Source: Frigoribacterium faeni (GTDB lineage Bacteria; Actinomycetota; Actinomycetes; Actinomycetales; Microbacteriaceae). From it: a stretch of 64,000 nucleotides of DNA. Made by a program: the position numbers and the translations under genes. The DNA lies in assembly GCF_007988805.1 (NCBI RefSeq), contig NZ_BJUV01000007.1:62001-126000 (forward strand). Direction: 5' to 3'. This document shows, one piece after another, positions 581 through 24,665 of the stretch (its first letter is position 1; every line of letters starts with the position of its first letter). Below the pieces are notes generated by a model. It did no database searches and had not been told where the DNA came from. It saw only the letters and a program-made list of their open reading frames with translations.

Positions 581-660
581 GACCGCGCCCTCCCGCGCCT
601 CGGCCGGTCGGAGCGACCCGTCCGCCCGGGTCGACCGGCCCTCCCCGAGGAGGCGCGGTC
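581..660 (-). terminator. Structured terminator region after the M60 peptidase gene
   Basis: An outer 9-bp stem (GACCGCGCC 581-589 with GGCGCGGTC 652-660) encloses a second perfect 9-bp stem (GGCCGGTCG 602-610 with CGACCGGCC 632-640). The outer right arm overlaps the M60 stop codon and is part of a copy of the repeated 14-mer CCGAGGAGGCGCGG (645-658). There is no T-run, as is common in GC-rich actinobacterial terminators. Confidence 0.45.
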
Positions 661-3628
661 AGCTCCGGGCGGTCACGGTCGCCCCGTCGACGGTGCCGGT
701 CAGGACCCAGTCGAGGGAGCCGCCCCCGGATGGCAGGTCCCGCGGCACGGTGACCGAGGGGGCCCAGCGCAGCTGCGTCCCCGCCGGGAGGCCCAGACCG
801 CTGGTCGAGCGGACGGTGAACGTGAGGGTGGCGCCGGAGTCGCTGCGGACGGCGCCGTCGACCACGATGGCGTCGGTGGCGACCCACTCGCCGCCGGGCC
901 GGCGCAGCTCGGTGACCAGCGCCTCCTGATGGTCGGCGAAGCGCGTGCCCGTGGGCGCGGTGAGCTCGAGTGCGCCGGCGAGCGACTCGACGGAGGGACG
1001 GATCTGGACGGCGAACGGCACCTCGCCCGTGCCTCCCTGAGTCAGAGCGACCGTGCCGTCGGCGGGGACGGCCGTGATCGGCTCGACCCGGTCGGTCCGG
1101 ACGGAGATCGGGGTGCTGGCGAGCAGGGTCGATCCGTCGAGCGACGTGATCGCCGCCCACCCGTCGCTCAGCTCCGCATCGGCGGGAGCGTCGGGGTCGA
1201 TGGCGAACGAGACGGCGAGGTAGTTGTCCGCGCCCGGCCCGAAGGTCATCGTGCCCGCGCCGGTCCTGTTGGTCACGGTCACGGTGCGACGGTCGTCGTC
1301 GTACGAGTAGTCCATGGCGGTCCAGCGGTGATCGTCCCGCGTTCGGCGGACCTGGACGTCGGCGATGGCGGTGCCGGCGGGGGCGTCGACGGTGATGATG
1401 CCGTGACGGGCCGGGCTCACCTCGATGCGGGCCAGGCCGGTCGTCCGACCGACGGCTCCGGTCGCCGTCGTCGAGGTCGCTCCCGTGCCCGGCACCGACG
1501 ACGCCTCGACGAGTCTCGAGCCGTCGACTCGGAGCGTGCGTGTCGTCGCGGTGCTGCGCGGCTGCTCGACGTCGTCGGCCCACCAGACCAGACGGGTGCT
1601 CGCCTCGCGGTGGCGGACGACGACGTACCAGCCGTCGCCGACCGTCGTCCCGTCGAACGCGGCGGCCGCCGCGTGAGCGGTCTGCTGGCCCTGCACCGAG
1701 AACGACGCCCTCTCGTCGCCGCGCTCGTCGTAGACCGTCGCCCCGACGTACTCCTGGCCGGGGAAGTAATCATGGGCGGGGTAGCCCGACGAGGCGAACA
1801 GGCGCAGCTCGCTCGTGGCGGGGGCGTAGGCGAGGCGAGCGATGTCGCGGCCGCTGATCCCGACGTAGTGGAACGAGTCACCGGCCCGGACGGTGACCGG
1901 GGTCGTGTAGAACTCGCGCACCCCGGCGTGGTTGACGACGGTCACATCGACCGCCCCCACGCCGGTCCCCGGGCGAACGGCGCGGATCGAGTGATCGGCG
2001 AGATCGACGGTGCCGACGCCGTCCGAGCTGCTCAGCCCGGAGAGATCGGGGATCGATGCGAGTCGGCGCTGGCCGACCGTGACCGATTCCCCGACGGGGG
2101 AGAGCGGGCCCTGCGGGATGCTGTAGGCCGGCGTCTCGTACTCGCGGATCAGCTCGCCCGAGAGCCGGTTCAGCCAGATCGGCTCCTCGAGCTCGGGAAG
2201 CCGGGCCATGGCGGCCTCGGTCTCCGCGCTGAGGGGGATGCCCCATTGGCGGAAGAACTCCCGGAGATCGCGGTCGGCGACGCGCGCGGTCGTGGCGGCG
2301 AAGAGCTGACGCTTCTGCTCGTCCGTCGTGGGCACACGCTCACCGCGCGCCTTCAGCACGCGCAGCTCCTGGTTCACCCGCGGGTAGAAGTCGTCGCCGA
2401 ACGCGCGGCGCAGGTGGTCGAAGAAGAACAGGCGGCCCCAGACGCTTCCCTGTGCCTGGAAGTCCCGGTCGTCGACGGGCTCGGCGAAGATCCGGTCGTA
2501 GGCGGCGACCTGCCCGTCGAGCCTCGTCGTCCAGCCGTAGTCCGATTGGATGTGCAGCGCCGAGAGGTTGACGAGCACCTCGCCGAGGCCGTTCCAGTTG
2601 AACGTGGGTGTCTGATAGGTGTGACCGACCTCGTGCCAGAAGCCCCACTGGTCCCAACGCGGGGAGCGGAAGAGATCGGCTGCCGCACCGGAGCTCACCT
2701 GGAACATGATGCGATCGTTCGAGGCGTTGGCGTAGCCGCTGCTCGAATCGGCGGAGGCGATGTATATCCGGTGCGGAGCCTTGCGGGCGACGCCCGTGCC
2801 GTCGTCGGACAGGCCGTACGTGTCGTTCGTGATGCGGATGAAGTCGTCGAGTTCGGACACCCGGAGCGCGGTGTCGGCCGCGGCGATGTACGGGCCGGTC
2901 GTCGGCTTCTGGAAGTCGCCGAAGAAGCGATCTCCGACGATCTGCACGAACGGGGCCGAGGCGAGACGGTCCATCTCGGAGTGGAGCTGTGCGGTGGTCG
3001 TCCGCCCCTGCACGAAAGCCGGCACGGGTTCTCCGCCGACGACGACGACGTCGGCGGAACCGCCGTCGGCTGTGCTGATCAGATGCACCATGCCGTCCTG
3101 CGGCGCGGTGAGCTCGTTCGTCCCGGGGTGGAGGTCCGCTCGCCAGAGTCCCTTCTCGACACCGCCGTTGTGCGCCGCGTAGACACCGGTCAGGCCGATG
3201 CCGACCGTCATGCGCGGCGCTCCGTCGGGCACGGTGATCGTGAGCCGATCGCCCGCTCGGGCGAAGCGAGCGGTCGGCTGCAGGTCGCTGTGCCGGTACG
3301 AGCGGTTCTCGCGCACCTGCTCGGCCGCGGCGGATCCGATCCCGTGGATGAGCACGGTGGTGGAGGCGTCGTCCTCGCTCAGGCGGATGTCCGTGGACCG
3401 AGGTCCGCCGGGGACGGCGTCGATCGAGGCGGCAGCCGCCGCGGGGACCGCCGACGGGGCGTCTCCGGCGGGCGTGGCCGTCGCCGGATCGGTCGCCAGC
3501 GGCGCCACGAGCAGGATGATCAGCGCGGCGGTCAGCAGGGGCTTCAGCCCGGGGCGTCGTGGCGTTGAGGCGGTGGTGCGGCCGGTGCCGGCCGAGCGGC
3601 GAGACGGGAGGGACGGGACGGCGGACAT
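659..3628 (-). CDS. Secreted M60-family (enhancin-like) zinc metallopeptidase
   Basis: This 989-residue exported protein has a long basic N-region and a hydrophobic signal segment at about residues 28-48 (LLTAALIILLVAPLA), then Ala-rich mature sequence. The M60 active site is visible: HEVGH at residues 332-336 and the third-ligand Glu at residue 350 in GLGEVLVN, fitting the family pattern HExxH-X8-24-E. The N-terminal third looks like the beta-rich M60 accessory domain and the C-terminal half like repeated Ig/bacuni-type domains. M60 peptidases cleave O-glycosylated, mucin-like proteins; here the target is unknown. GAGGAG six bases before ATG is a good ribosome site. The gene is single and starts from an AT-rich promoter region (3629-3690). 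Confidence 0.85.
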   Translation of the reverse strand: MSAVPSLPSRRSAGTGRTTASTPRRPGLKPLLTAALIILLVAPLATDPATATPAGDAPSAVPAAAAASIDAVPGGPRSTDIRLSEDDASTTVLIHGIGSAAAEQVRENRSYRHSDLQPTARFARAGDRLTITVPDGAPRMTVGIGLTGVYAAHNGGVEKGLWRADLHPGTNELTAPQDGMVHLISTADGGSADVVVVGGEPVPAFVQGRTTTAQLHSEMDRLASAPFVQIVGDRFFGDFQKPTTGPYIAAADTALRVSELDDFIRITNDTYGLSDDGTGVARKAPHRIYIASADSSSGYANASNDRIMFQVSSGAAADLFRSPRWDQWGFWHEVGHTYQTPTFNWNGLGEVLVNLSALHIQSDYGWTTRLDGQVAAYDRIFAEPVDDRDFQAQGSVWGRLFFFDHLRRAFGDDFYPRVNQELRVLKARGERVPTTDEQKRQLFAATTARVADRDLREFFRQWGIPLSAETEAAMARLPELEEPIWLNRLSGELIREYETPAYSIPQGPLSPVGESVTVGQRRLASIPDLSGLSSSDGVGTVDLADHSIRAVRPGTGVGAVDVTVVNHAGVREFYTTPVTVRAGDSFHYVGISGRDIARLAYAPATSELRLFASSGYPAHDYFPGQEYVGATVYDERGDERASFSVQGQQTAHAAAAAFDGTTVGDGWYVVVRHREASTRLVWWADDVEQPRSTATTRTLRVDGSRLVEASSVPGTGATSTTATGAVGRTTGLARIEVSPARHGIITVDAPAGTAIADVQVRRTRDDHRWTAMDYSYDDDRRTVTVTNRTGAGTMTFGPGADNYLAVSFAIDPDAPADAELSDGWAAITSLDGSTLLASTPISVRTDRVEPITAVPADGTVALTQGGTGEVPFAVQIRPSVESLAGALELTAPTGTRFADHQEALVTELRRPGGEWVATDAIVVDGAVRSDSGATLTFTVRSTSGLGLPAGTQLRWAPSVTVPRDLPSGGGSLDWVLTGTVDGATVTARS

Positions 3629-3664
3629 GATGACTCCTCACGGTGAGGGATCATCATAAACACG

Positions 3665-3689
3665 TCACATGTGAAATACAAATCTGTCA
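3665..3689. promoter_or_regulatory. AT-rich promoter/operator element upstream of the M60 gene
   Basis: The gap between the M60 start and the preceding stop contains the perfect 10-bp palindrome TCACATGTGA (3665-3674). It overlaps TGTGAAATACAA (3670-3681), followed by TGTCA (3685-3689). The same TGTGAAATACAA plus TGTCA arrangement recurs upstream of the ACP gene (12378-12395). The base composition is strikingly lower in GC than the surroundings. Confidence 0.45.
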
Positions 3690-4733
3690 GGAGAGGAGCG
3701 CTCGTGCGTCGGCGAGGAATCGGTCGACGTGGTCCTCGGTGGTGTCGAACGAGCACATCAGGCGCACCTCGCCCGTCGCCCGGTTCCAGTCGTAGAAGTG
3801 GTGGACGGAGCGGAGGGGTTCGACGATCTCCGATGGGAGGGTGACGAACACGGCGTTCGCGTCGACGGCCTGCGTGACCGCGATCCCCGGCAGGGCCGCG
3901 AGGCCCGCGGCGAGACGCGTGGCCATCGCGTTCGCCGTCGCGGCCGATCGCCGCCACAGGTCGCCGTCGAGCATCGCCAGGAACTGCGCGGAGACGAACC
4001 GCATCTTCGAGACCAGCTGCGCGTCCATCTTGCGGAGGAAGACCAGACCGGTCCGCGCCTCCTCGGTGAAGGTCACGACGGATTCGCCGAGCACCAGGCC
4101 GTTCTTGGTGCCGCCGAGCGAGACCGAGTCGACGCCGGCGTCGCGGGTCAGGGCCCGGAGCGAGACGTCGAGCGAGGCGGCGGCGTTGGCCAGACGGGCT
4201 CCGTCGAGGTGGACGCGCAAGCCCAGGGAGTGCGCGTGGTCGGTGATCGCGCGGATCTCGTCGGGCGTGTAGACCGTTCCGAGCTCGGTGCTCTGGGTGA
4301 TCGTCACGGCGAGGGGCTGGGGTCGCTGCTGGTCGCCCCAGCCGTAGGCCTGGCGATCGATCAGCTCGGGCGTGAGCTTGCCGTCGGGGGTGGGCACGGT
4401 CAGCAGCTTGATGCCGCCGAGCCGCTCGGGGGCCCCGCCCTCGTCGGTGTAGACATGCGCGGTCGTGGCGCAGATCACCGCGGCCCAGCGGGGCGTCAGG
4501 GCCTGCAGGGCGGCGACGTTCGCGCCGGTGCCCGTCAGGACGGGGTCGATCGAGGTCCCCTCGCCGAACGTCTCGATCACGACCTCGGCCAGCCGCTCGG
4601 TGTAGGGGTCGGCACCGTACGAGCCGACGTGCCCGCCGTTGGCGTCGAGCATCGCCTGCAGCACCTCGGGGTGGGCGCCCGCGTAGTTGTCGGAGGCGAA
4701 CGAATGGGCTGAGGGGTCGTGGAGGCGCGTCAC
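3687..4733 (-). CDS. Low-specificity L-threonine aldolase (beta-eliminating lyase family)
   Basis: This PLP enzyme cleaves L-threonine/allo-threonine to glycine and acetaldehyde. The sequence has the family landmarks SDNYAGAHPEVL, GTGANVAALQAL, LDGARLANAAA and the PLP-lysine motif SLGGTKNG (Lys about residue 210 from the chosen start). GTG at 4733 (VTRLHDPSAHSF) gives 348 residues, the usual family length. An in-frame ATG at 4829 would add 32 unconserved residues and no better ribosome site. It is divergent from the DegT aminotransferase. No functional link to the EPS genes is evident. Confidence 0.85.
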   Translation of the reverse strand: MTRLHDPSAHSFASDNYAGAHPEVLQAMLDANGGHVGSYGADPYTERLAEVVIETFGEGTSIDPVLTGTGANVAALQALTPRWAAVICATTAHVYTDEGGAPERLGGIKLLTVPTPDGKLTPELIDRQAYGWGDQQRPQPLAVTITQSTELGTVYTPDEIRAITDHAHSLGLRVHLDGARLANAAASLDVSLRALTRDAGVDSVSLGGTKNGLVLGESVVTFTEEARTGLVFLRKMDAQLVSKMRFVSAQFLAMLDGDLWRRSAATANAMATRLAAGLAALPGIAVTQAVDANAVFVTLPSEIVEPLRSVHHFYDWNRATGEVRLMCSFDTTEDHVDRFLADARALLS

Positions 4734-4878: not shown

Positions 4879-6018
4879 ATGACGACTCGAATCCATCTGT
4901 CCGCACCCGACGTCGGCGACGCCGAACGCGCCTCCGTCGACGCGGCCCTGCGCTCGGGCTGGGTCGCCCCGCTCGGTCCGGAGGTCGACGCCTTCGAGCG
5001 GGAGGTCGCCGAGCGCGTCGGCGTCGGACACGGAGTCGCACTCTCGTCCGGCACGGCCGCCCTCCACCTGGGGCTCCGCGGCCTCCGGGTCGCACCCGGA
5101 TCCCTCGTCGTCACGTCGACGTTCACGTTCGCGGCCACCGCCAACGCCGCCGTCCACGCCGGCGCGACCCCCTACTTCGTCGACTGCCGCCCCGACACCG
5201 GCAACCTCTGCCCCGATCTGCTCGACGAGGCGCTGACGGGGCTCGCCGCCGCCGGCCGGGTCGTCTCCGCCGTCGTGCCCGTCGACATCTACGGGCGTGT
5301 GGCCGACCTCGAGCGCATCCTCGACGTCGCGGCTGCGCACGGCGTGCCCGTGCTGTGCGACAGCGCCGAGTCGCTCGGGGCCGCCCGTGGTGGTCGAGCG
5401 GCCGGCTCGTTCGGCCGGGCCTCGGCCGTGTCCTTCAACGGCAACAAGATCATGACGACCTCGGGCGGCGGCATGCTGCTGACCGACGACGCCGAGATCG
5501 CCGTCGAAGCTCGTCGGGTCGCCAGCCAGGCCCGACTGCCGGTGGCCCACTACGAGCATGCCGAGATCGGCTACAACTACCGGCTGAGCAACATCCTCGC
5601 CGCCCTCGGACGGGCCCAGCTCGGTCGGCTCGACTCGATGATCGCGCGCCGTCATCGCGTCCGCGACCGGTACCGCGCCCTCCTGAACGGGCGGGACGGC
5701 GTCCGCATCCTGCACGACGACGGCCTCGACGCGGCCGACAACGCCTGGCTGACCTCGGTCGTCTTCGACGATCCGGCGGTGGTGGCGTCCGTGGGGGCGG
5801 CGCTCGCCGCAGACGACATCGAGACCCGTCGGCTCTGGAAGCCCCTGCATCTGCAGCCCGTCTTCCGGTCGAACGGACGGCACGTCACCGGGGCCGGCGA
5901 GGAGCTCTTCCGACACGGACTCACCCTCCCCAGCGGGTCCGCGCTGGGCGACGACGATCTCGACTGCGTGTGCGGCCGTCTCGAGTCCGCCCTCGACGAG
6001 GCGGGCGTCCGTGGCTGA
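4879..6018 (+). CDS. DegT/DnrJ/EryC1/StrS-family sugar-nucleotide aminotransferase
   Basis: This 379-residue PLP enzyme transfers an amino group to a keto-sugar nucleotide, making a 3- or 4-amino sugar for polysaccharide or glycan assembly. Motifs in order: LSSGTAALHLGLRGL (phosphate-binding), VDIYGRVADLE, LCDSAESLGAARGG (Asp for the PLP ring), and SFNGNKIMTTSGGG with the Schiff-base Lys190. It resembles bacillosamine/perosamine-type aminotransferases (PglE-like). GGGAG four bases before ATG is the ribosome site. Its end overlaps the next gene, a sugar-phosphate transferase, so the two are co-translated. Its amino-sugar product is the likely acceptor for the acyltransferase/ACP/KAS set at 12.4-14.4 kb (inference). 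Confidence 0.85.
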   Translation: MTTRIHLSAPDVGDAERASVDAALRSGWVAPLGPEVDAFEREVAERVGVGHGVALSSGTAALHLGLRGLRVAPGSLVVTSTFTFAATANAAVHAGATPYFVDCRPDTGNLCPDLLDEALTGLAAAGRVVSAVVPVDIYGRVADLERILDVAAAHGVPVLCDSAESLGAARGGRAAGSFGRASAVSFNGNKIMTTSGGGMLLTDDAEIAVEARRVASQARLPVAHYEHAEIGYNYRLSNILAALGRAQLGRLDSMIARRHRVRDRYRALLNGRDGVRILHDDGLDAADNAWLTSVVFDDPAVVASVGAALAADDIETRRLWKPLHLQPVFRSNGRHVTGAGEELFRHGLTLPSGSALGDDDLDCVCGRLESALDEAGVRG

Positions 6019-6745
6019 GACGACCCGCTCCTCCTCGGGGCCCCAGGGTCCTCGCGTGCTGCCGACGCGGGGTCGTCGTCCCGGCCGCGCCGGTGTCCGC
6101 CTCCGACGGGCCGCCGACCTCGTGCTCGCCGTCGCCGCCCTCGTCGTGCTCGCCCCGGTCATGCTGGCGACGGCCCTGGCCGTCGCCGCGAGGCTCGGGC
6201 GGCCCGTCTTCTTCCGGCAGGAGCGCGTGGGCCGCGGCGGTCGCGTCTTCCGGTTGTGGAAGTTCCGCAGCATGCTGGCGCAAGACGAGTCGCGGGGGCT
6301 CGTGTCCGACGCCGACCGGCTCACCCCGTTCGGACGGCTGCTGCGGTCCACGAGCCTCGACGAGCTGCCCGGGCTGTTCAACGTGGTCGTCGGCGACATG
6401 AGCCTGGTCGGCCCCCGTCCCCTCCCGCCCCTCTATCTCGACCGGTACACCCCGGAGCAGTCGAGGAGGCACGAGGTCGCGCCCGGGCTGACCGGGCTGG
6501 CGCAGGTGGCCGGCCGCAACTCCCTCGGCTGGGACGACCGTCTGGCCCTCGACGTCCGGTACGTCGACGAGGCGTCGCCGTTCCTCGACGCCTGGATCGT
6601 CCTGCGCACCGTGCGGGTGGTGCTCCGTCGTGAGGGCATCACCGCCGAGGGGGCGGCGACGATGACCGAGTTCCAGGGGGCGTCCGATCAGCCGGCCCCG
6701 GCGTCGGAGCGGTCTCCCTCGGTGTCCCCGGCGGAACGCCGCTGA
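6011..6745 (+). CDS. Initiating undecaprenyl-phosphate sugar phosphotransferase (PglC/WcaJ-type)
   Basis: Bacterial sugar transferase that starts EPS/glycan repeat synthesis by moving a phospho-sugar from a UDP-sugar to the membrane lipid undecaprenyl phosphate. This is the short PglC-like form (244 residues, one N-terminal membrane segment, about residues 36-57). Family motifs: FRQERVGRGGRVFRLWKFRSM, then STSLDELPGLFNVVVGDMSLVGPRP with the catalytic Asp-Glu pair, and VAPGLTGLAQVAGRN. The GTG start overlaps the aminotransferase end by 8 bases, showing coupled expression. The C-terminal 20 residues are a disordered Ser/Pro tail. Confidence 0.9.
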   Translation: MAETTRSSSGPQGPRVLPTRGRRPGRAGVRLRRAADLVLAVAALVVLAPVMLATALAVAARLGRPVFFRQERVGRGGRVFRLWKFRSMLAQDESRGLVSDADRLTPFGRLLRSTSLDELPGLFNVVVGDMSLVGPRPLPPLYLDRYTPEQSRRHEVAPGLTGLAQVAGRNSLGWDDRLALDVRYVDEASPFLDAWIVLRTVRVVLRREGITAEGAATMTEFQGASDQPAPASERSPSVSPAERR

Positions 6746-6812: not shown

Positions 6813-7448
6813 ATGCTCATCGACTCCCACCCCAGCTTGATCGTCGTCGGACAGGGCCGCGTCGGCCTCCCCCTCGCGATGCGCGCCGTCGAGGCCGGCT
6901 TCGACGTCCTCGGCGTGGACATCGACCCGTCGCGGGTCGCCGCGCCCCGGGAGGGCGCCTCCGCCGTCGACGACGTGCCCGATGTCGTCGTGCGCGCCGC
7001 GCGGGACTCCGGCCGCTACGCCGTCGACGGCGATCTCGGCCGGATCGACGGCTTCGACTTCGCCGTCGTCACCGTGCCGATCGAGCTGCGCGACTCCGTG
7101 CCCGACCTCGGCTCCCTCGAGTCGGCCGCCCGTTCGCTGTCCCTCGGTCTGCGACGGGGGGCCACGGTCGTCCTCGAGTCGACGGCGCCGCCCGGCACCA
7201 CCGCCGAGGTGCTCGTGCCCCTCCTCGAGCAGGGGAGCGGACTCTCGGCCGGCCGCGACTTCTCCGTCGGCTTCAGCCCCGAGCGCCTCGATCCGACCGC
7301 GTCCGTCCGGTCGTTGCGGACGACGCCCACGCTCGTCTCCGGCATCGACCCCGAGTCGCTGGCCAAGGTGACCGCGCTCTACGCCGACCTCGCAGACACC
7401 ACCGTGCACGTCGATCCGGCACCGCCTCGTTGGCGGCCTGCACCATGA
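6813..7448 (+). pseudogene. Truncated UDP-sugar dehydrogenase (NAD domain only)
   Basis: This 211-residue frame matches the first ~200 residues of the intact dehydrogenase at 18616-19872: GQGRVGLPLAMRAVEAGFDV, DDVPDVV, VVTVPIELRDSVPDLGSLESAARSL, LESTAPPGTTAEVLVPLLEQGSGL, GFSPERLDP. It stops just after TVHVD, before the helical linker and the catalytic-Cys domain (GGHCLPIDP in the full copy). The last dozen residues (Pro/Arg-rich) are unrelated, and an AEC transporter starts eight bases later. The NAD-binding GxGxxG is intact but no catalytic cysteine remains, so it is almost surely a remnant. A regulatory or dimer-poisoning role is possible but unsupported. Confidence 0.8.
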
Positions 7449-12301: not shown

Positions 12302-12365
12302 CGGCACAGGGTCCCGGCCACCGTCCTCCCGGCCACCGTCCTCCTGGTCTCCTCGGCCAGAAACT

Positions 12366-12400
12366 GAGGATTGATATTGTGAAATACAAGTGTCACGGGT
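12366..12400 (+). promoter_or_regulatory. AT-rich promoter element upstream of the ACP operon
   Basis: The 146-base gap after the septum gene contains TTGATA (12371-12376), TGTGAAATACAA (12378-12389) and TGTCA (12391-12395). The last two match the element upstream of the M60 gene at 3670-3689. A 17-base tandem duplication (CCGGCCACCGTCCTCC, twice) lies just upstream at about 12316-12349. GAGGA ahead of the ATG at 12448 is the ribosome site. Confidence 0.45.
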
Positions 12401-12447
12401 AGCATGAGAGACGGGCGCAGACGCGCCTCCCGATCTCGTGAGGACAC

Positions 12448-12675
12448 ATGAACGACACCGATCTGCTCACCCTGGCCACCGATCTCGTCGACGCCGAACC
12501 CGGCGCGCTGAGCATGACCGATCGTCTCGCCGACATCGGCTGGGACTCCCTCTCGAGCGCCATGTTCATCGCCGAGGCGGACTCCGTGTGCGGCGTCATC
12601 GTCGACGCGGCGGCGCTCGGGCGCTGCGTGACCCTCGCCGACGTCCAGGCGCTGACCAGCCCGGTCGGCGCGTGA
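12448..12675 (+). CDS. Stand-alone acyl carrier protein
   Basis: A 75-residue acidic protein with the phosphopantetheine-attachment motif GWDSLSSAMFI; the carrier Ser is residue 34. It is shorter and more divergent than the primary-metabolism AcpP, and is coupled by a GTGA overlap to an acyltransferase and then a KAS III-like gene. This suggests it delivers a special acyl group rather than serving bulk fatty-acid synthesis (inference). Role by context: carrier for an acyl chain put on an amino sugar of the EPS. Confidence 0.8.
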   Translation: MNDTDLLTLATDLVDAEPGALSMTDRLADIGWDSLSSAMFIAEADSVCGVIVDAAALGRCVTLADVQALTSPVGA

Positions 12676-13343
12676 CCGTGGACTCCGCGCCCACCCGCGG
12701 GGGGCGTCGTCTCGTCCTCGTCGGCGCCGGGGGAGCGGGGCGCGAGGTCCACGCGCTCGTCCGCTCGTCGCCCCGGTTCGTCGAGGCCGAGCAGGTCGTC
12801 GAGATCGTCTTCGTCGACGACGTCGTCGACCGTCCGGGTCTTCCCGCTCCGGTCGTCTCGACCGTCGACGACTACCGCCCCGCCGACCGCGACATCGTCC
12901 TCTGCACGATCGGCGGATCCCGCTCCCGGACCGCCGTGGTCCGACGGCTGGAGGCCGTCGGCGCGCGGTTCACGACGTTCGTCCACGACACCGCGGTGCT
13001 GCTGCCCGGCTCGTCGATCGGCGCCGGCTCCGTCGTCTACCCGTTCGTGGTCGTCTCCACCGACGTGGTCGTCGGACGGCATGCGTGGCTCAGCACCGCG
13101 GCCGTCCTCGGCCACGACGTCACGGTCGGCGACGTGGTGACGCTCAACGGCGCGTCGCAGCTCCTCGGCGACGTCACGGTGGGCGACGGGGCGTTCGTCG
13201 CCTGCGGCGCGATCGTGGTGCCCGGCGTCGAGGTCGGCGCCGACGCCCGAGTCGGGGCCGGCAGCGTCGTCCTCCGACGAGTGAAGCCGGGCACGACCGT
13301 GTTCGGCACGCCCGCCACCCTCCTGACCGGAGCCGCACGATGA
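12672..13343 (+). CDS. NeuD/PglD-type sugar O/N-acyltransferase (left-handed beta-helix)
   Basis: This 223-residue protein has an N-terminal Rossmann-like UDP-sugar-binding half (LVLVGAGGAGREVHALV, IVLCTIGGSRSR) and a C-terminal hexapeptide-repeat beta-helix (SIGAGSVVYPFVVV, VVVGRHAWLSTAAVLGHDVTVGD, VTVGDGAFVACGAIVVPGVEVG). His in VLGHD is the likely catalytic base, as in PglD. Such enzymes acylate amino-sugar nucleotides. PglD uses acetyl-CoA, but the flanking ACP and KAS III genes suggest an ACP-linked donor here. GTG overlaps the ACP stop and its own stop overlaps the next ATG. Confidence 0.85.
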   Translation: MTVDSAPTRGGRRLVLVGAGGAGREVHALVRSSPRFVEAEQVVEIVFVDDVVDRPGLPAPVVSTVDDYRPADRDIVLCTIGGSRSRTAVVRRLEAVGARFTTFVHDTAVLLPGSSIGAGSVVYPFVVVSTDVVVGRHAWLSTAAVLGHDVTVGDVVTLNGASQLLGDVTVGDGAFVACGAIVVPGVEVGADARVGAGSVVLRRVKPGTTVFGTPATLLTGAAR

Positions 13344-14377
13344 CCCCGACCCGCGCCTCCTCGGCTCCCGCCCCGTACGCGGCTCTCCGTGCCGTCGCGT
13401 CGTACGTGCCGCCGACCGTCGTCGACAATGCGCAGCTGAATCGCGAGTTCGCTCCCGCGGTCGTCGACCGGATCGCGGCGAAGACCGGCATCGACCGGCG
13501 CCACGTGGTCGACGGCGAGACCGCGTCCGACCTCGCGGTCGCGGCGGCCGAGAGGCTGCTGGCCGAGAACGCCATCGACCGCGACTCGATCGACTACCTC
13601 CTGCTCTGCACCCAGAGCCCCGACTTCGCGATGCCGTCGACCTCGTGCCTCGTGCACGACCGCCTCGGCCTGCCCGCGTCGGCGGGATCGCTCGACCTGG
13701 CGATGGGCTGCTCCGGCTACGTCTACGCCCTCGGCCTGGCCAAGGCGCTGATCGAGAGCGGTCAGGCGACGACGGTCCTGCTCCTCACCAGCGACACGCT
13801 CACCCGCTACCTCAACCCGGCCGACCGGCAGCTGCGCACGATCTTCGGCGACGGCGCCAGCGCCTCCCTGGTGACGGCGTCGGCGTCCTCACCGGCCCTC
13901 ACCGGCTTCGCCTACGGCACCGACGGCTCGGGCGCCGAGCATCTCATCGTGCCCGGCGGCGGCCTGGCCGACGCGTCCGGGTTCGCGCCCGCGGCCATGC
14001 CCGAGGCGCGCGGACTCGAGCCCACGGGGCACGACCTCTACATGAACGGCGCCGAGGTCTTCACCTTCTCGCTGAGGGTGGTGGCCGACGTCGTCCGCAG
14101 ATCCCTCGACCGAGCCGGGGTCGGCATCGTCGACGTCGACGCCTTCGTGCTGCACCAGGCGAACGCGTTCATGCTCGAGACCCTGCGGAAGAAGCTCGGC
14201 GTCGAGCCGGCGCGCTTCGTCGTCGAGATGAGCGACGTGGGCAACACGACGTCGTCGTCGATCCCGATCGCTCTCGAGGCGGCCCTGGCGAACGGGCAGA
14301 TCGCTCCCGGTCAGAAGGTCGTCTTCGTCGGCTTCGGCGTCGGGCTGTCGTGGGGCGCGGTCGTCGTCGATCTCTGA
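13340..14377 (+). CDS. 3-oxoacyl-ACP synthase III family enzyme (FabH-like)
   Basis: This 345-residue thiolase-fold condensing enzyme has the complete Cys-His-Asn triad: Cys124 in LAMGCSGYVYAL, His272 in VLHQANAFML, Asn302 in VGNTTSSSIP. KAS III enzymes condense an acyl-CoA primer with malonyl-ACP. Being in an operon with its own ACP and a sugar acyltransferase, it probably makes a short 3-oxo/hydroxyacyl-ACP for polysaccharide decoration. No reductase is adjacent, so the product may stay 3-oxo or be processed by housekeeping enzymes. One copy of the repeated 14-mer (13351-13364) codes for residues 5-8 (RASS) of the N-terminal tail. Confidence 0.85.
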   Translation: MTPTRASSAPAPYAALRAVASYVPPTVVDNAQLNREFAPAVVDRIAAKTGIDRRHVVDGETASDLAVAAAERLLAENAIDRDSIDYLLLCTQSPDFAMPSTSCLVHDRLGLPASAGSLDLAMGCSGYVYALGLAKALIESGQATTVLLLTSDTLTRYLNPADRQLRTIFGDGASASLVTASASSPALTGFAYGTDGSGAEHLIVPGGGLADASGFAPAAMPEARGLEPTGHDLYMNGAEVFTFSLRVVADVVRRSLDRAGVGIVDVDAFVLHQANAFMLETLRKKLGVEPARFVVEMSDVGNTTSSSIPIALEAALANGQIAPGQKVVFVGFGVGLSWGAVVVDL

Positions 14378-18005: not shown

Positions 18006-18023
18006 GGTCCTCCTGGATCGACG

Positions 18024-18056
18024 GTAAACATGAGATACTTTACATGAAGTACGTGA
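18024..18056 (-). promoter_or_regulatory. AT-rich promoter element of the GT2-GT4 gene
   Basis: Read on the minus strand, CATGTAAAGTATC lies within about 45 bases of the glycosyltransferase start and resembles the CATGTAATATTC element before the dehydrogenase gene (18533). TAAAGT is a plausible -10. The region is a short AT-rich island in GC-rich surroundings. Confidence 0.4.
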
Positions 18057-18096
18057 ATGCCTGAAGAGGTCGCGCTTCTTCGTCGGGCGGGCCGGT

Positions 18097-18530: not shown

Positions 18531-18547
18531 CTCATGTAATATTCTCC
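18531..18547 (+). promoter_or_regulatory. Extended -10 promoter of the nucleotide-sugar dehydrogenase operon
   Basis: CTCATGTAATATTC contains TGTAATAT, close to an extended -10 sequence, at 18534-18542. A leader of about 65 bases follows, ending with GGGAGG seven bases before the ATG at 18616. It shares the TGTAATAT core with the element before the DegT gene. Confidence 0.5.
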
Positions 18548-18615
18548 GATTTCCATATCGACTGTGCTTAGATCGACCCAGCGCCCTGATCCGAGGGCGC
18601 TGGGAGGGCGAGAGC

Positions 18616-19872
18616 ATGAGCATCAAGGTCGTCGTCGTCGGTCAGGGCTACGTGGGCCTGCCCCTGGCGATGCGAGCGGTCGAGGTCGGGTACCGGGTCG
18701 TCGGGGTCGATCTCGACGTGCCCCGCGTCGAGGCGCTGCGGGCCGGCCGCTCGTACGTCGACGACGTCCCCGACGAGGTGCTGCGCCGGGCTCTCCTGTC
18801 GGGCCGGTATCTGGCCACGGCCGAGCACGACGACGCGAGCGACGGGTTCGACATCGCGGTCGTCACCGTCCCCACGCCTCTGCGAGAGGGCCTGCCCGAT
18901 CTGTCGTTCGTCGAGAGCGCGGCGCGTTCCCTCGCCGGGCGACTCCGTCCGGGTGCTCTCGTCGTCCTGGAGTCGACGACCTACCCGGGCACCACCGACG
19001 ACCTCCTCGTCCCCCTGCTCGAGCAGGGGTCCGGGCTCCAGGCGGGCGCGGACTTCCACGTCGGGTACAGCCCGGAACGGATCGATCCGGGCAACCGCCG
19101 CTGGGGGTTCGTCGAGACGCCCAAGGTCGTCTCGGGCATCGACGAGGGCTCCCTGGCCGCGGTCACGGCGTTCTACGACGACCTCGTCCTCCGGACGGTC
19201 CCGGTGTCGGGCACCCGTGAGGCCGAGCTCACCAAGCTGCTGGAGAACACCTTCCGCCACGTCAACGTCGCCCTGGTCAACGAGCTGGCGGTGTTCGCCC
19301 ATCGACTCGGGGTCGACGTCTGGGAGGCCATCGACGCCGCGTCCACGAAGCCGTTCGGCTTCATGCGCTTCACCCCGGGGCCCGGCGTGGGTGGCCACTG
19401 CCTGCCGATCGACCCGAGCTACCTCTCGTGGCAGGTGAGGCGCGAACTCGGCGAACCGTTCCGGTTCGTCGATCTGGCGAACGACGTCAACGAGCACATG
19501 CCCGACCACGTCGTCGACCGGGTCCAGGCGATGCTGAACGACTGCTCCCGCTCGGTGCGCGGGTCGCGCGTGCTGCTCGTCGGTCTCGCGTACAAGAAGA
19601 ACACCGGCGACGTCCGCGAGGCGCCGGCTCTCCGGATCGCCGAGCTCCTGCTCCGTCGCGGGGCGGTCGTCGTGGCGGTCGACGAGCACGTGTCGGAGCG
19701 CGACTGGCCGCAGGGGATCCGCCGGGTCGACCTGAGCGCGACCGTGGTCGCCGACGTCGACGCCGCCGTCGTCGTCACCGACCACGACGGGCTCGACCTG
19801 GCGGTGCTCGACGGCGTGCCGACGTTCGACACCCGTCACGTGCTGACGGGCGACCACGTCGTCGTCCTCTGA
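18616..19872 (+). CDS. Nucleotide-sugar 6-dehydrogenase (UDP-GlcNAc/ManNAc or UDP-glucose dehydrogenase family)
   Basis: This 418-residue NAD-dependent enzyme oxidises the C6 hydroxyl of a UDP-hexose to a uronic acid, giving the EPS a negative charge. N-terminal NAD domain: VVVVGQGYVGLPLAMRAVE. Central helix: TKLLENTFRHVNVALVNELA. Catalytic Cys262 sits in PGVGGHCLPIDPSYL, and the C-terminal UDP-binding region has LLVGLAYKKNTGDVREAPAL. The pattern is closer to the WecC/WbpA (HexNAc) group than to classical UDP-glucose dehydrogenase, but the substrate is not proven. It heads a run of five EPS genes. A truncated paralogue lies at 6813. Confidence 0.88.
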   Translation: MSIKVVVVGQGYVGLPLAMRAVEVGYRVVGVDLDVPRVEALRAGRSYVDDVPDEVLRRALLSGRYLATAEHDDASDGFDIAVVTVPTPLREGLPDLSFVESAARSLAGRLRPGALVVLESTTYPGTTDDLLVPLLEQGSGLQAGADFHVGYSPERIDPGNRRWGFVETPKVVSGIDEGSLAAVTAFYDDLVLRTVPVSGTREAELTKLLENTFRHVNVALVNELAVFAHRLGVDVWEAIDAASTKPFGFMRFTPGPGVGGHCLPIDPSYLSWQVRRELGEPFRFVDLANDVNEHMPDHVVDRVQAMLNDCSRSVRGSRVLLVGLAYKKNTGDVREAPALRIAELLLRRGAVVVAVDEHVSERDWPQGIRRVDLSATVVADVDAAVVVTDHDGLDLAVLDGVPTFDTRHVLTGDHVVVL

Positions 19873-19880
19873 CCTGCAGC

Positions 19881-20939
19881 GTGAGAGTCCTCTACTACGG
19901 CGTCCACGACGCCGCCTACCCGCGCAACACCCGCATCCGCGCCTACCTCGTGGAGCGCCTCGGGGCCCGGGTCGAGGTCGTCGCCCGCCGTCGCACCGGG
20001 TCGAGGGTGCGACGGGCGGCCGCCGACCTCCGCGGCCTCTGGCTCGGCTCGCGCGGCGTCGACGTCGTCGTCCTGGCCGAGATGAGGGTGAGCCATGCTC
20101 CGCTGGGGTGGCTGGTCTCCCGGCTCCGGGGCGCCCGCTTCGTCGTCGATCGGCTCGTCGGCCTGCACGAGACGGCGGTCGTCGACTGGCGGTCCGTCGC
20201 CCCCCGCTCGCCCGCCGCCCTGCGCCTCCTCGTGCTCGACCGGCTCGCCCTGCGGCTGGCCGACCTCGTCCTGATCGACACCGAGATGCGGGCGGACGAG
20301 CTCCGACGGGTGTCGCGGGCGGCGCCCGTCGTGGCGCTGCCGGTCGGCGCGCCCCGCTGGGCTCGCGATCGACCCCCGGCCCCGCCGAGCGAGACGCTCC
20401 GCGTCCTCTACTACGGCAACTACATCCCGCTCCACGGCACCGAGCTCGTCCTCGAGGCGCTGGCTCTCGTCCTGCCCCGCCGAGCCGTCCGGCTCACGCT
20501 CATCGGCGGCGGACCGCGCCGCGACGGGATCGAGCGCCTCGTCGATCGTCTCGGTCTCGGAGCCGCCTGCCGGTTCGTCGACGCGGTCCCCGAGAGCGCG
20601 CTCGTCGACGCGATCGGCGCCAACGACGTCGTCCTCGGCGTGTTCGGCGACTCCGCCAAGGCTCGGTCCGTCGTCGCGAACAAGGTCTGGCAGGGGCTCG
20701 CCTGCGGCCGGACGGTCGTGACGCAGCGCAGCCCCGCCCTGGCCGAGCTGCAGGTCGTCGCCGGGTCGCTCCTGGTGCAGACCGAGCCGGGCGACGCCCA
20801 CGCCCTGGCCGGCGCCCTCGTCGGCGTCGTGCCCCGCACCATCCGGGCGGACCTCGTCGCGCCCGCCCTCGACGAGCTCGTCGACAGGGGCTTCGCCGGT
20901 CTCGAGGCGCACCTGCGCGGGCCGGGCCGCTCGTCGTGA
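19881..20939 (+). CDS. GT4-like glycosyltransferase
   Basis: This 352-residue GT-B transferase reads VRVLYYGVHDAAYPRNTRIRAYLVERLGARVEVV at the start and RVLYYGNYIPLHGTELVLEAL, LTLIGGGPRR and FGDSAKARSVVANKVWQGLACGRTVVTQ in the nucleotide-sugar-binding half. The usual E-x7-E glutamates are replaced in this last stretch, so the family fit is by fold rather than by motif. The GTG start at 19881 follows the dehydrogenase stop by eight bases, and its own stop overlaps the next gene (GTGA). It probably adds one sugar of the EPS repeat on the cytoplasmic face of the membrane. Confidence 0.75.
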   Translation: MRVLYYGVHDAAYPRNTRIRAYLVERLGARVEVVARRRTGSRVRRAAADLRGLWLGSRGVDVVVLAEMRVSHAPLGWLVSRLRGARFVVDRLVGLHETAVVDWRSVAPRSPAALRLLVLDRLALRLADLVLIDTEMRADELRRVSRAAPVVALPVGAPRWARDRPPAPPSETLRVLYYGNYIPLHGTELVLEALALVLPRRAVRLTLIGGGPRRDGIERLVDRLGLGAACRFVDAVPESALVDAIGANDVVLGVFGDSAKARSVVANKVWQGLACGRTVVTQRSPALAELQVVAGSLLVQTEPGDAHALAGALVGVVPRTIRADLVAPALDELVDRGFAGLEAHLRGPGRSS

Positions 20940-22168
20940 CGCGCCTCCTGGGCCAGCTGGGCACCCTCCTGCTCTACGGCGCCTCGCCCGTCGTCGCCGC
21001 GCTCGCACCGCTCGCCGTCGTGCCGGCGGTGACGGGCCGGTACGGCGCCGCCGGATGGGCCGCGTGCGCCGTGGCGCTATCGATCGGCGCGGCGACCGCC
21101 GTCGTCGCCGAGCTCGGCTGGGTCGTCGTCGGGCCGCAGCGCGTGTCGCGCGACCCCGGGCGCTACGTCGACGTGCACCACGAGGCGCTGGCCTCGCGGC
21201 TCGCGGCCCTCGCCGTGCTGGCGCCCGTCGCGGTCGTCGCCGTGGCGCTCCTGGTCGACGAGCACCGGGCGGCGGCGATCCTGCTGACCGTCGGCGTCGC
21301 GGCCGGGTCGCTCAGCCCGACCTGGCTCTTCGTCGGACTCGGGCGACCGCTCCTGACGCTGGTCTGCGAGGCGCTGCCGCGCGTCGTCTTCGCGGTGGGG
21401 GCGGCCGGGGTCATCGCCCTCGGCGGGCCGCTCGAGGCGTACGGCGCGGCGACGATCGCGGCGACCATCGCCACGGCGATCGCGACCTCGCGGGCCGTGG
21501 CCGTCGTCGCCTGGCCGCGGCGCGACCGCCTCGCCGCGGTGCCCTCGATCGTCCGGGCCCAGCTGGTCGTCACCGCGGGGCGCGGGGTCACGGCGCTGTA
21601 CAAGTCGCTGCCCGCCGCCCTGCTCCAGTCGGTCGCACCCGGCTCGGTCGCCTCCTTCGGCGCCGTCGACCGGCTCACCCGGTCGGGGCTCGCCGTGGCG
21701 GCGGTGCTCCCGCAGCGGCTGCAGGTCTGGGTGGGGGTGCCCGACGCGACGCAGGCGGTTCGGCGCACGACGGTGTCGCTGCTGCTCAACACGGCCCTCG
21801 GCGTCCTCGCGGCGGGGGTCGTGCTGGTCGGGCTGCCGCCCGTCGTCGACGTCCTCTTCACCGGCGTCGTCGAGGCCGAGCCCTCGTCGATCCGCGCGGC
21901 CGCCGTCCTGGTCCTCCTCACCTGCGTCTCGCGGGGTCTCGGGCTGGCCCTCGTGACGCTGGGCCGGGTCCGCCGGACGACGACGGCGGCTCTCGCCGCC
22001 GCCCTCGTCGGCGTGCCCGGGGTGCTGTGCGGCGGGGCGCTCGGCGGCGCCACCGGCGCCCTCGCCGCCCTCGCCGCGGCCGAGGCGGTGGGGGCGGTGA
22101 CGCAGGCCCTCGTCGTGGTGCCGTCGCTCGTCCGCCGGCACCGCGCCTCCTCGGGGGCCGGGTCATGA
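20936..22168 (+). CDS. Wzx-like polysaccharide flippase (MOP/MATE-like membrane protein)
   Basis: This 410-residue protein has about 12 hydrophobic segments and few charged loops, and is placed between a glycosyltransferase and a Wzy-like gene. The fold and position fit the lipid-linked oligosaccharide flippases of Wzx/Wzy pathways, which turn the undecaprenyl-PP repeat to the outside. The family is poorly conserved, so the call rests on topology, on features such as ALYKSLPAALLQSVAPGSVASFGAVDRL, and on neighbours. GTG overlaps the upstream stop and the stop overlaps the next ATG. The last residues (RASSGAGS) are coded by a copy of the repeated 14-mer (22141-22154). Confidence 0.75.
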   Translation: MTRLLGQLGTLLLYGASPVVAALAPLAVVPAVTGRYGAAGWAACAVALSIGAATAVVAELGWVVVGPQRVSRDPGRYVDVHHEALASRLAALAVLAPVAVVAVALLVDEHRAAAILLTVGVAAGSLSPTWLFVGLGRPLLTLVCEALPRVVFAVGAAGVIALGGPLEAYGAATIAATIATAIATSRAVAVVAWPRRDRLAAVPSIVRAQLVVTAGRGVTALYKSLPAALLQSVAPGSVASFGAVDRLTRSGLAVAAVLPQRLQVWVGVPDATQAVRRTTVSLLLNTALGVLAAGVVLVGLPPVVDVLFTGVVEAEPSSIRAAAVLVLLTCVSRGLGLALVTLGRVRRTTTAALAAALVGVPGVLCGGALGGATGALAALAAAEAVGAVTQALVVVPSLVRRHRASSGAGS

Positions 22169-23430
22169 CCGCCCTGTCGCTCGTCGGCGCGCTCGTCGCC
22201 GGATGCGCCGTGGTCGTCGGGGCCCTGCTCGTACCGGGGCCCGCCCGACGCGGGGCGACGCTCGTCGTGGTGGCGGCCATGCTGGTGGGCACCGCCTCGA
22301 CCGCGGCTCCCGAGTCGGTCCGCTCGGGTGCGATCTACGGCGCGATCGCTCTCCTGGCGCTCGCCGCCCTCGGACCCGGGCCGGTGATCGGGCGCCGCGG
22401 ATGGACGATCGTCGGGCTGACGGCGGTCTCGTTCGGCGTCGCCGCCGTCACGACGACGATCGGCTATCCCGACGCCCTGGGACTGACCCTGCGCGTCGGG
22501 GCGCTCTCGGTCGGAGCGACCTGGTGCGTGCTGCGCTCGACCGCGACCGATCTCCTCGTGCTCGGGTGGGGCGTGGTCGCGCTGGCCCTCGTCGAGGTCG
22601 CTCTCGGACTCGTCGAGTTCGTCGTGGGGCTCCCCGTGCCGTGGGGCCTGTCCGCCCGCAAGCTCGACTCGTACGTCCTGGTCAACACGCTCCTGCCCGG
22701 CGACCTCGAGCGGGTGCAGGGCACCGTGGGGCACCCCATCACGTTCGGCGTCGTGCTCTGCGTGGCCTTCGTGATCGTCGTCGCCTCGGGTCGGGGGCTC
22801 CCGTCGCCCCTCCGCGCCGCGGTGGTCGTCGCGCTCGTCGTCGGCATGCTCCTGTCGGGCAGCCGCAGCATCGTGCTCGCGGCCGTGCTGGCGCTCGCCG
22901 TGCTCGTCGTCGTCGGCGCGCACGGGCGCGGCGTCGTGCGGGCCGGGGCCGCGGTGCTGGGCGCGACGGTCGCCGTCGTCGTGTTCGTCGACGAGGTCGG
23001 CGTCGCGTCGGACCGGTTCCTCTCGTCCGGATCGTACGAGAACCGGGCGGGCACCGTCGAGTCCGTCCCGCGCCTCCTCGGCCGTCCGCCGGGCGAGACG
23101 GTCTTCGGCAGCGGGGTGGGGACGGTCGAGCGGCTCTATCAGGAGGGCCTGTTCCCGCAGGACGGCTTCTGGGTGCTCGACAACCAGCTCGTCACGACGC
23201 TCGCGACCCAGGGGGTCGTCGGCGTGGTCCTGCTCGTGGCGGTGATCGGCGTCTCGATGACGAGCCGCGATCCGCTCGCCCGGTCGCTCACCGCCGTCTT
23301 CGTCGGCATGCTCGTCACCTTCGACTACGTGTTCTGGCCGTCGATGACGGTCCTCGCGGCGGGTGCGGCCGGTCTCGCCGGCAGGTCCGCCGTCGACCCC
23401 GCCCGCCACCGGATCGGAGGATCCCCGTGA
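22165..23430 (+). CDS. Wzy-like EPS polymerase / O-antigen ligase family membrane protein
   Basis: This 421-residue protein has 10-12 membrane segments and the large outer loop typical of the O-antigen ligase/Wzy family (PF04932-like). The landmarks are VQGTVGHPITFG, MLLSGSRSIVLAAVLAL (the conserved SRS/G motif), [27 protein letters not shown] and NQLVTTLATQGVVGVVLL. It should polymerise the flipped repeat units at the outer face. It is coupled on both sides by ATGA/GTGA overlaps. A copy of the repeated 14-mer (23068-23081) lies in frame at the start of the outer loop (PRLLGRPPG). Confidence 0.82.
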   Translation: MTALSLVGALVAGCAVVVGALLVPGPARRGATLVVVAAMLVGTASTAAPESVRSGAIYGAIALLALAALGPGPVIGRRGWTIVGLTAVSFGVAAVTTTIGYPDALGLTLRVGALSVGATWCVLRSTATDLLVLGWGVVALALVEVALGLVEFVVGLPVPWGLSARKLDSYVLVNTLLPGDLERVQGTVGHPITFGVVLCVAFVIVVASGRGLPSPLRAAVVVALVVGMLLSGSRSIVLAAVLALAVLVVVGAHGRGVVRAGAAVLGATVAVVVFVDEVGVASDRFLSSGSYENRAGTVESVPRLLGRPPGETVFGSGVGTVERLYQEGLFPQDGFWVLDNQLVTTLATQGVVGVVLLVAVIGVSMTSRDPLARSLTAVFVGMLVTFDYVFWPSMTVLAAGAAGLAGRSAVDPARHRIGGSP

Positions 23431-24665
23431 CCCCGCACGACCACCCCGCGCCCACGTCGACCGACGAGAGCGCGGCGCCCGCCGCCCCGGGCCGACGGCT
23501 CCGCGTCGCGGTGATCGGCACCCGCGGGTACCCGAGCTTCTACGGCGGATTCGAGACGGCCGTCCGTCGGCTGGCCCCTGCGCTCGCCGACGCCGGGTGG
23601 GAGGTCACCGTCTACGGGCGAGCGGGGGGCTCGGCCGACGACGCCGTCCGCTCGACCGGCCCCGCCTCGCCCCACGGGACCGGTGGCCGCGACGGCCGTG
23701 ATCCGCGCATCGTGCGACGCGTGACCCGCGGGCTCGAGACCCGGTCGCTCAGCACGCTGACCCACGGGCTGACCGCGGTCGTCGACGCCGCCTGGCGGAG
23801 GCCCGACGTGGTGCTCGTGATGAACTGCGCGAACGGCTTCTGGCTCCCCCTCCTGCGGGTGCGGGGCATCCCGACCCTGGTCAACGTCGACGGCATCGAG
23901 TGGGAGCGGGCGAAATGGGGTCGCCTCGCCCGCCTGATCTTCCGGCTCGGGGCGGTAGCGACCGCTCGTTGGGCCGACCGCATCGTCTGCGATGCGCGCG
24001 AGATCGCCCGCCGGTGGCGCGACGACTTCGGCGTCGACGGCGTCTTCGTGCCGTACGGGGCCGACGAGCCGCTCGCCGACCCGGTCGAGTCCGGGCTCGA
24101 GGCCGGCCGATACGCCCTGCTGGTCGCCCGGTTCGTCCCCGAGAACACGGTCGACGAGTTCATCGAGGCCGCCGAGCGGATCGCCGAACGCCACGACGTC
24201 GTGTTCGTCGGGTCGAGCGGGTACGGCGGCGCGCTCGATCGCCGTGTCGCCGAGCTCGCGGAGCACTCCCCGCGGGTGCGGCACCTGGGGCACCTGCGCG
24301 ACGACCGCCGCCTCCACGCCCTGTGGCGGAACGCGGGCGCGTACTTCCACGGGCACAGCGTCGGCGGCACGAATCCGGCCCTCGTGCAGGCCATGATGTG
24401 CGGTGCCCCGGTCGTCGCCCGCGACACCGTCTACAACCGGGAGGTGCTCGGCGACGCCGCCGTCTTCGTCCCGCCGGAGCCCGGGGCCATCGCCGCCGGC
24501 GTCCTGACCGTCCTCGACGACGCCGGGCTGGCGCGCCGGATCGGCGACACCGCCCGGAGGCGCGCTCGCGAGCGCTACGGCTGGCGTCAGGTGTGCTCCG
24601 CCTACGAGACCGAGCTCCGCCGCCTCGTCGAGGGCTCGGGTCGGACCCGCCGAGCGCGTCGCTGA
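23427..24665 (+). CDS. DUF1972/GT4 glycosyltransferase (rhamnosyltransferase-like)
   Basis: This 412-residue GT-B enzyme has an N-terminal block AVIGTRGYPSFYGGFETAVRRLAP that matches DUF1972, found in Cps2T/WchF-like beta-1,4-rhamnosyltransferases. The C-terminal half has YALLVARFVPENTVDEFIEA, VFVGSSGYGG, RHLGHLRDDRRLHALWRNAGAYFHGHSVGGTNPALVQAM, with Asn-Pro in place of the usual second acidic motif, as in this subgroup. Transfer of rhamnose is a guess from the family. GTG overlaps the Wzy stop. It is the last gene of the forward EPS operon and is followed by a hairpin. Confidence 0.82.
   Translation: MTPHDHPAPTSTDESAAPAAPGRRLRVAVIGTRGYPSFYGGFETAVRRLAPALADAGWEVTVYGRAGGSADDAVRSTGPASPHGTGGRDGRDPRIVRRVTRGLETRSLSTLTHGLTAVVDAAWRRPDVVLVMNCANGFWLPLLRVRGIPTLVNVDGIEWERAKWGRLARLIFRLGAVATARWADRIVCDAREIARRWRDDFGVDGVFVPYGADEPLADPVESGLEAGRYALLVARFVPENTVDEFIEAAERIAERHDVVFVGSSGYGGALDRRVAELAEHSPRVRHLGHLRDDRRLHALWRNAGAYFHGHSVGGTNPALVQAMMCGAPVVARDTVYNREVLGDAAVFVPPEPGAIAAGVLTVLDDAGLARRIGDTARRRARERYGWRQVCSAYETELRRLVEGSGRTRRARR

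Follow-up and report, generated by a model that had tools for sequence, protein, structure and literature searches.

Genes of the triad and their upstream region

The window, by which we mean the whole 64,000-nucleotide stretch analysed here, belongs to a Frigoribacterium genome (Microbacteriaceae; G000) of 3.38 Mb and 99.99% completeness, to which Frigoribacterium sp. CFBP 13712 and F. endophyticum are the closest named genomes as judged by KAS. Three genes in it, hereafter the triad, follow an AT-rich block:

12365..12407, forward strand: AT-rich block upstream of the triad, conserved in the relatives L016 and L089
12448..12675, forward strand: dedicated ACP, 75 aa (PF00550, 20.7 bits; Ser34 in GWDSL)
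12672..13343, forward strand: NeuD/PglD-like left-handed beta-helix sugar acyltransferase, 223 aa (TIGR03570, PF00132)
13340..14377, forward strand: KAS III of class B, 345 aa (PF08541, PF08545, NF006829; Cys124/His272/Asn302)

The genes are joined by 4-bp overlaps (GTGA at 12672-12675 between ACP and NeuD, ATGA at 13340-13343 between NeuD and KAS), both identical in the genomes G403 and G330. A preliminary description of this DNA had reported such a coupling of three genes with intact active sites; coordinates, frames and overlaps all proved correct, and Ser34 of the ACP, Cys124, His272 and Asn302 of the KAS and His148 of the acyltransferase are in place. The ACP falls 0.1 bit short of the PF00550 cut-off (20.7 versus 20.8 bits) and thus formally outside that domain; it carries the phosphopantetheine serine, however, and the DS motif around this residue is kept in all 16 ACP rows shown in the alignment. 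No BLAST match was obtained between this ACP and the one encoded beside FabH at E values up to 10. The acyltransferase matches TIGR03570 (NeuD_NnaD) over nearly its full length with 155.9 against a cut-off of 160.8 and is therefore called NeuD/PglD-like here, without family membership; PglD_N scores 19 against 23.4. Its motifs are GAGGAGREV at 18 and GHDV, the latter with His148, and its PDB matches include 4m9c, 7txp (VioB) and 3bss (UDP-N-acetylbacillosamine N-acetyltransferase). The KAS is a KAS III by NF006829 (283.7 versus 249), PF08541 (109.6) and PF08545 (77.1, both above cut-off), with 3gwa as top PDB match. We considered whether it might be the housekeeping FabH and rejected this, its TIGR00747 (fabH) score being 252.7 against 292.1 and a probable FabH lying elsewhere in the genome, namely the other KAS III on contig C4, which adjoins an ACP gene. 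A third KAS III homologue of the genome, 28% identical, is found on contig C3 at 81855-82823 (L003, L101). Nine pairwise comparisons of the triad genes among three genomes gave NG86 dN/dS values of 0.11-0.37, and judged from their sequences ACP, NeuD and KAS all look functional.

The block at 12365..12407 is kept in L016 and L089, whereas the bases farther upstream differ, and could possibly be a promoter or operator; no sigma-70-type match falls on it among the matches listed. Its core, TGTGAAATACAA, has exactly two copies in the genome, both within the window. On a 10-base grid just four 40-base stretches of the window reach at least 62% A+T (3651-3690, 12361-12400, 18021-18060 and 18531-18570), and they sit upstream of an M60 peptidase, the triad, a GT2-GT4 gene and a dehydrogenase-EPS operon, respectively. 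The related words TGTGAAATACAA, TGTAATAT and TGTAAAGTAT, which were picked after the fact, recur at these stretches and before the DegT gene (4844); several of the upstream words are also kept in L016 and L089, and perhaps they point to a regulator common to a surface regulon whose members are scattered. The M60 (enhancin-like) peptidase, at 659-3628 on the reverse strand near the EPS genes, contains a mucin/carbohydrate-binding stretch.

Occurrence and insertion site in Frigoribacterium

Whole-genome searches recovered the window KAS from 4 of 16 Frigoribacterium genomes (G000, G330, G403 and that of F. endophyticum, G298); in the remaining 12 the sole KAS III is about 30% identical and is the probable FabH. 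A NeuD of at least 56% identity occurs in the same four KAS-bearing genomes, and four others of the 16 have a NeuD at 31-36%. The preliminary description had pointed to other actinobacteria as the place to look for the triad. Within the genus, three genomes (G000, G330 and G403) carry it, flanked by a HAD gene and by the large gene that follows pyrE; F. endophyticum has a six-gene version, and 12 of the 16 genomes are without it. In these 12 this housekeeping site is empty, the HAD gene and its neighbour lying 28-339 bp apart, and ACP, NeuD and KAS are absent from the 9-18 kb examined. The genes are thus co-inherited: they come or are missing jointly, as one block, and always at one site, which makes the triad more than a chance arrangement.

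The F. endophyticum cluster (L017) reads ACP1-KAS1-ACP2-SDR-NeuD-KAS2, and the triad corresponds to its ACP2, NeuD and KAS2 (51, 53 and 70% identity, with which the KAS tree agrees) minus the SDR. Apart from this SDR, the F. endophyticum cluster differs in its second ACP-KAS pair and in lying on the opposite side of the HAD gene.

Putative sugar route and EPS genes

Genes that could supply and use an amino sugar are found in the same window:

4879..6018, forward strand: DegT-family PglE-like sugar aminotransferase (PF01041, 304.9 bits)
6011..6745, forward strand: polyprenyl-phosphate glycosylphosphotransferase, PglC/WbaP type (PF02397, 198.8 bits)
18616..24665, forward strand: EPS genes (nucleotide-sugar dehydrogenase, GT, probable flippase, Wzy-like gene, GT)
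24738-26150, reverse strand: Wzz gene

The best model for the DegT protein is TIGR04181 (LegC family), under its cut-off with 322.7 versus 420, and the top three PDB matches are 7b0m, 1o61 and 4ztc, followed by perosamine synthetases; we take 1o61 and 4ztc to be C. jejuni PglE. The enzyme probably makes the 4-amino sugar, and the earlier suggestion that DegT could supply it gains from these matches as well as from a dehydratase and a Bac_transf gene that complete the route. The latter, the glycosylphosphotransferase at 6011..6745, adjoins DegT in all four module genomes and is probably the enzyme by which the lipid carrier receives its first sugar. The dehydratase (PF02719) lies on another contig (C1:130232-131998) and has WlaL, presumably PglF, as its top PDB match. 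By sequence similarity, 4,6-dehydratase, aminotransferase and phosphoglycosyltransferase of the bacillosamine (Pgl) route are all in the genome, and PglE-, PglC- and PglF-like genes occur in each of the four module genomes. The resemblance to the Pgl route extends to a PglD-like gene; the difference is that these genes are dispersed and that the PglD-like enzyme is placed with an ACP and a KAS, which implies that the acyl group is not acetyl.

A 4-amino sugar of the UDP-bacillosamine type is the probable acceptor, since the PglE-, PglC- and PglF-like genes are present and, at E 1e-8, none of the four module genomes has a full-length NeuD match besides the module NeuD (at 1e-6 a single 52-residue match in G330 is added). 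The KAS-less genomes point the same way: in G398, G399, G401 and G402 an 80-81% identical dehydratase directly adjoins a 61-62% identical DegT, followed in G398 by a Bac_transf-like ORF, recognised by eye, and by NeuD. As a statistic, the joint presence of the triad and DegT carries little weight, a DegT of at least 60% identity being present in 10 of the 16 genomes (4/4 with the module, 6/12 without); the dehydratase, found in 12 of 16, is not exclusive to module genomes either, and 6.4 kb with housekeeping genes separates the triad from DegT.

In the EPS operon the probable flippase was assigned by position and hydrophobicity, a Pfam match being absent, and the Wzy-like gene scores 20.1 bits for PF04932, under the cut-off of 31.7. 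Between DegT and the triad, at 6813-7448, lies a nucleotide-sugar dehydrogenase consisting of the N-terminal domain only (PF03721, 211 aa). In several other Frigoribacterium genomes the corresponding ORF is shorter (148-172 aa in the three shown), and the product has the look of a remnant in decay or of a small protein put to a new use.

KAS loci in other bacteria

At E 1e-50 the window KAS was found in 11 of 398 genomes sampled from Microbacteriaceae, its own genome counted. A scan of the species-genome collection by way of six peptides of the window KAS, and hence with a biased sample, gave 73 KAS loci, among them loci in Pseudomonas, Undibacterium, Photobacterium, Caulobacter, Bacteroidota, Selenomonadales, Bacillus and Paenibacillus; a MAG of Nitriliruptoraceae contributed one further actinobacterial locus. 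The preliminary description had placed acyl modifications of this kind mainly in Gram-negative O-antigens, and the two parallels discussed below are indeed Gram-negative (PMC3927599, PMC6519341), but the KAS itself is also at home in Gram-positives, as the Microbacteriaceae, Bacillus and Paenibacillus loci show. For a tally of 79 loci we combined 70 from the scan with 9 from Microbacteriaceae, leaving out the three triad loci and dropping L088 (25% identity). Within 6.5 kb of KAS, an ACP was found in 69/79, an SDR in 64/79, a NeuD-profile match in 40/79 (some of these being other hexapeptide transferases, as in L099) and DegT in 35/79; the genes were called by our own script, which overlooks accessory genes whose composition deviates (L161), and where a locus reaches the end of a contig, genes may be missing from it. 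All 40 loci with a NeuD-profile match also have an ACP.

Cys, His and Asn are kept in all 118 aligned KAS sequences, including the two other KAS III of G000. The KAS tree separates a class A (52 sequences, support 0.995) from a class B (51 sequences, support 0.865), with few outside both, and the window KAS falls in class B together with the other acyl-sugar-type KAS of Microbacteriaceae (clade support 1.0). Two KAS genes are present at 36 loci, as A+B in 29, A+A in 4, B+B in 2 (L017 and L094, both from Microbacteriaceae) and A with an unplaced sequence in 1. The co-occurrence of two old KAS III classes at 29/36 such loci was noted for the KAS pairs of L018-L087.

In the NeuD tree, the window NeuD and its F. 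endophyticum counterpart fall together (0.999) within a clade made up of NeuDs from KAS loci (0.972), and four NeuDs from KAS-less Frigoribacterium form a separate clade (0.956), the deeper nodes being weak. The NeuD of L095, which lies 5.8 kb from KAS and adjoins DegT, is sister to the KAS-less Frigoribacterium clade (0.994). Four Microbacteriaceae genomes (L092, L093, L096 and L097) have an ACP-KAS pair for which NeuD or SDR was not found nearby, so that in this family the pair looks like a portable source of acyl groups. In L097 (7989-10440), a membrane acyltransferase, AT3, directly precedes ACP and KAS, possibly forming an ACP-fed O-acylation module.

These findings bear on the strongest competing explanation, in which NeuD would be an ordinary acetyl-CoA-dependent PglD making di-N-acetylbacillosamine, while ACP and KAS feed a separate lipid or another acyltransferase and the shared operon is incidental. 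Among the NeuD/PglD relatives of solved structure, several bear the name acetyltransferase, and the pairs without NeuD, one of them beside AT3, show the company that ACP and KAS may keep. Against this, the three genes overlap, with NeuD in the middle, and do so in three genomes; the ACP accompanies KAS in every one of the 40 other loci with a NeuD-profile match; and the window NeuD sides with those of KAS loci, though the NeuD of L095 goes with the KAS-less group. We therefore regard the acetyl-CoA explanation as unlikely.

The missing ketoreductase

An SDR lies within 6.5 kb in 39 of the 40 other loci combining KAS, ACP and NeuD, and stricter NeuD thresholds hardly alter this share (37/38 at 150 bits, 35/36 at 180 bits); the single SDR-less locus among the 40 is L042, a Paludibacteraceae MAG. 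No close match to the F. endophyticum SDR was found in the triad genomes, the top-scoring ones being 38% identical in G000 and 36% in G330 and G403, with a lower-scoring match of 39% in G000. A profile of nine dedicated SDRs, five of whose rows are the same family SDRs that it then recovers, scored 348-371 bits in G298, G003, G346, G276 and G367 and at most 174 bits for other matches; at E 1e-45 it found none in G000, G330, G132, G097 and G270 and solely generic SDRs in G403 and G253. A second profile was made from 49 dedicated SDRs of 47 loci, none from Microbacteriaceae, and gave 273-294 bits for the five dedicated family SDRs against 131-159 bits for the seven best of G000. Left out of it were eight loci (L058, L073, L075, L076, L077, L079, L080 and L086), whose SDR, where contained in the SDR tree (SDR matches of at least 240 bits near a KAS), grouped with a FabG-like SDR of G000. 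A ketoreductase of the F. endophyticum type elsewhere in the genome is thus rejected at the thresholds used, given identities of at most 39% and a gap in two profiles, and the earlier remark that none is adjacent can be widened, the dedicated type being absent genome-wide at these thresholds.

As the dedicated SDR is repeatedly absent, something presumably copes with the missing reduction step, and a generic SDR could do so in the triad genomes. The acyl group would therefore either stay 3-oxobutanoyl or become 3-hydroxybutanoyl by way of the housekeeping FabG, two outcomes that we consider about equally likely. That the line is reductase-free altogether, derived from a reductase-bearing ancestor and putting an N-acetoacetyl group on a Gram-positive EPS sugar with one reactive ketone per repeat, is a tentative idea, with the odds somewhat against it. 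A word search of open-licence PMC returned neither an actinobacterial example nor an N-acetoacetyl sugar, but it also passed over PMC3927599, in which an N-acetoacetyl intermediate is named.

Known parallels and proposed function

In Pseudomonas syringae pv. tabaci, a viosamine island encodes a single KAS (VioS, 338 aa), VioB (213 aa), VioR and an ACP; the viosamine bears a 3-hydroxybutanoyl group, this modified viosamine is missing from a vioR mutant, and the authors count dTDP-N-acetoacetylviosamine as one of the species not accepted by VioT (PMC3927599). Its KAS III of about 340 aa, VioB-type acyltransferase, dedicated ACP and N-acylation of a 4-amino sugar resemble what we find or propose here, and KAS, NeuD-type acyltransferase and ACP do stand together in the window. 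The island differs from the triad in its VioR reductase, which the glycan requires, its dTDP-sugar and its flagellin target; the triad, in contrast, belongs to an actinobacterium and an EPS context with a PglE/PglF-type sugar route, and a dedicated, VioR-type SDR was found neither in the window locus nor, at the thresholds used, in the genome. Since loss of vioR abolished the modified sugar, FabG did not substitute for VioR there, which argues against the FabG outcome. In P. viridiflava (L047), a class B KAS (338 aa) adjoins a 213 aa NeuD, matching VioS and VioB in size and place.

The second parallel is Flavobacterium psychrophilum, in which wfpC and wfpE (KAS), wfpD (ACP), wfpF (reductase) and wfpG (PglD-type), together with pglE/pglF, are predicted to place a 3,5-dihydroxyhexanoyl group on UDP-Qui2NAc4N (PMC6519341). 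ACP, KAS, PglD-type acyltransferase and the predicted PglF/PglE route to the sugar are shared with our locus, whereas two different KAS and a reductase stand against the one KAS of the triad, without reductase. By analogy, a pattern in which one class B KAS plus reductase gives C4 and A+B plus reductase gives C6 would fit both parallels, with VioS put in class B, and WfpC and WfpE in their classes, from size or gene order alone.

Donor, acceptor, acyl group and place in the glycan, as we infer them from the gene content, would be connected as follows. KAS III would join a short primer, most likely acetyl-CoA, to malonyl on the dedicated holo-ACP to yield acetoacetyl-ACP, while the PglF-like dehydratase and the DegT aminotransferase would provide the UDP-bacillosamine-type sugar. 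The NeuD/PglD-like enzyme would then move the acyl group, as 3-oxobutanoyl or after reduction by FabG, from the ACP onto the 4-amino group of this sugar; the phosphoglycosyltransferase would start the EPS repeat by transferring this N-acyl sugar to the lipid carrier, and the Wzx/Wzy-type genes would export and polymerise the repeat.

We give a probability of roughly 0.72 to the reading that the triad works as a miniature fatty-acid line dedicated to the N-acylation of one surface (EPS) amino sugar. It is supported by overlapping genes that keep intact catalytic residues under purifying selection, by the recurrence of the KAS-locus gene set in other phyla and in two published systems, and by the grouping of the window NeuD with NeuDs of KAS loci and not with those of KAS-less Frigoribacterium. 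What speaks against it are the scores of ACP and NeuD just under their cut-offs, the dispersal of the route genes, the weak co-occurrence with DegT, and the four family genomes in which an ACP-KAS pair without NeuD or SDR can serve something else. ACP-fed N-acylation of an amino sugar, already favoured in the preliminary description, accordingly is the reading best supported by comparison of the loci.

Two further explanations concern the product and the state of the genes. The acyl group might be longer or branched, with KAS priming with isobutyryl-CoA or another CoA and fatty-acid enzymes finishing the chain. Primers of the branched kind are widespread in this group of bacteria; nevertheless, in size and gene order the class B KAS agrees with VioS (L047), and the product of VioS is C4 (PMC3927599), by which analogy a longer or branched group appears improbable, somewhat more so than the acetyl-CoA explanation. 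That the triad is a functionless, decaying remnant of a six-gene cluster of the F. endophyticum type, whose SDR, one KAS and one ACP have no counterpart in it, is scarcely credible in view of the low dN/dS, the open frames in three genomes and the kept upstream block.

Dedicated ACP/KAS synthesis of acyl sugars is known from flagellin glycans and O-polysaccharides of Gram-negative bacteria, and the dedicated acyl line proposed here would extend it to a surface polysaccharide locus of an actinobacterium. The pairing of KAS classes suggests a rule by which acyl length may be predicted from gene content. With and without ketoreductase, the same gene set within one genus offers a natural comparison of what sets the acyl group, and if the group were to stay unreduced, the EPS of these Frigoribacterium would bear a native ketone handle.
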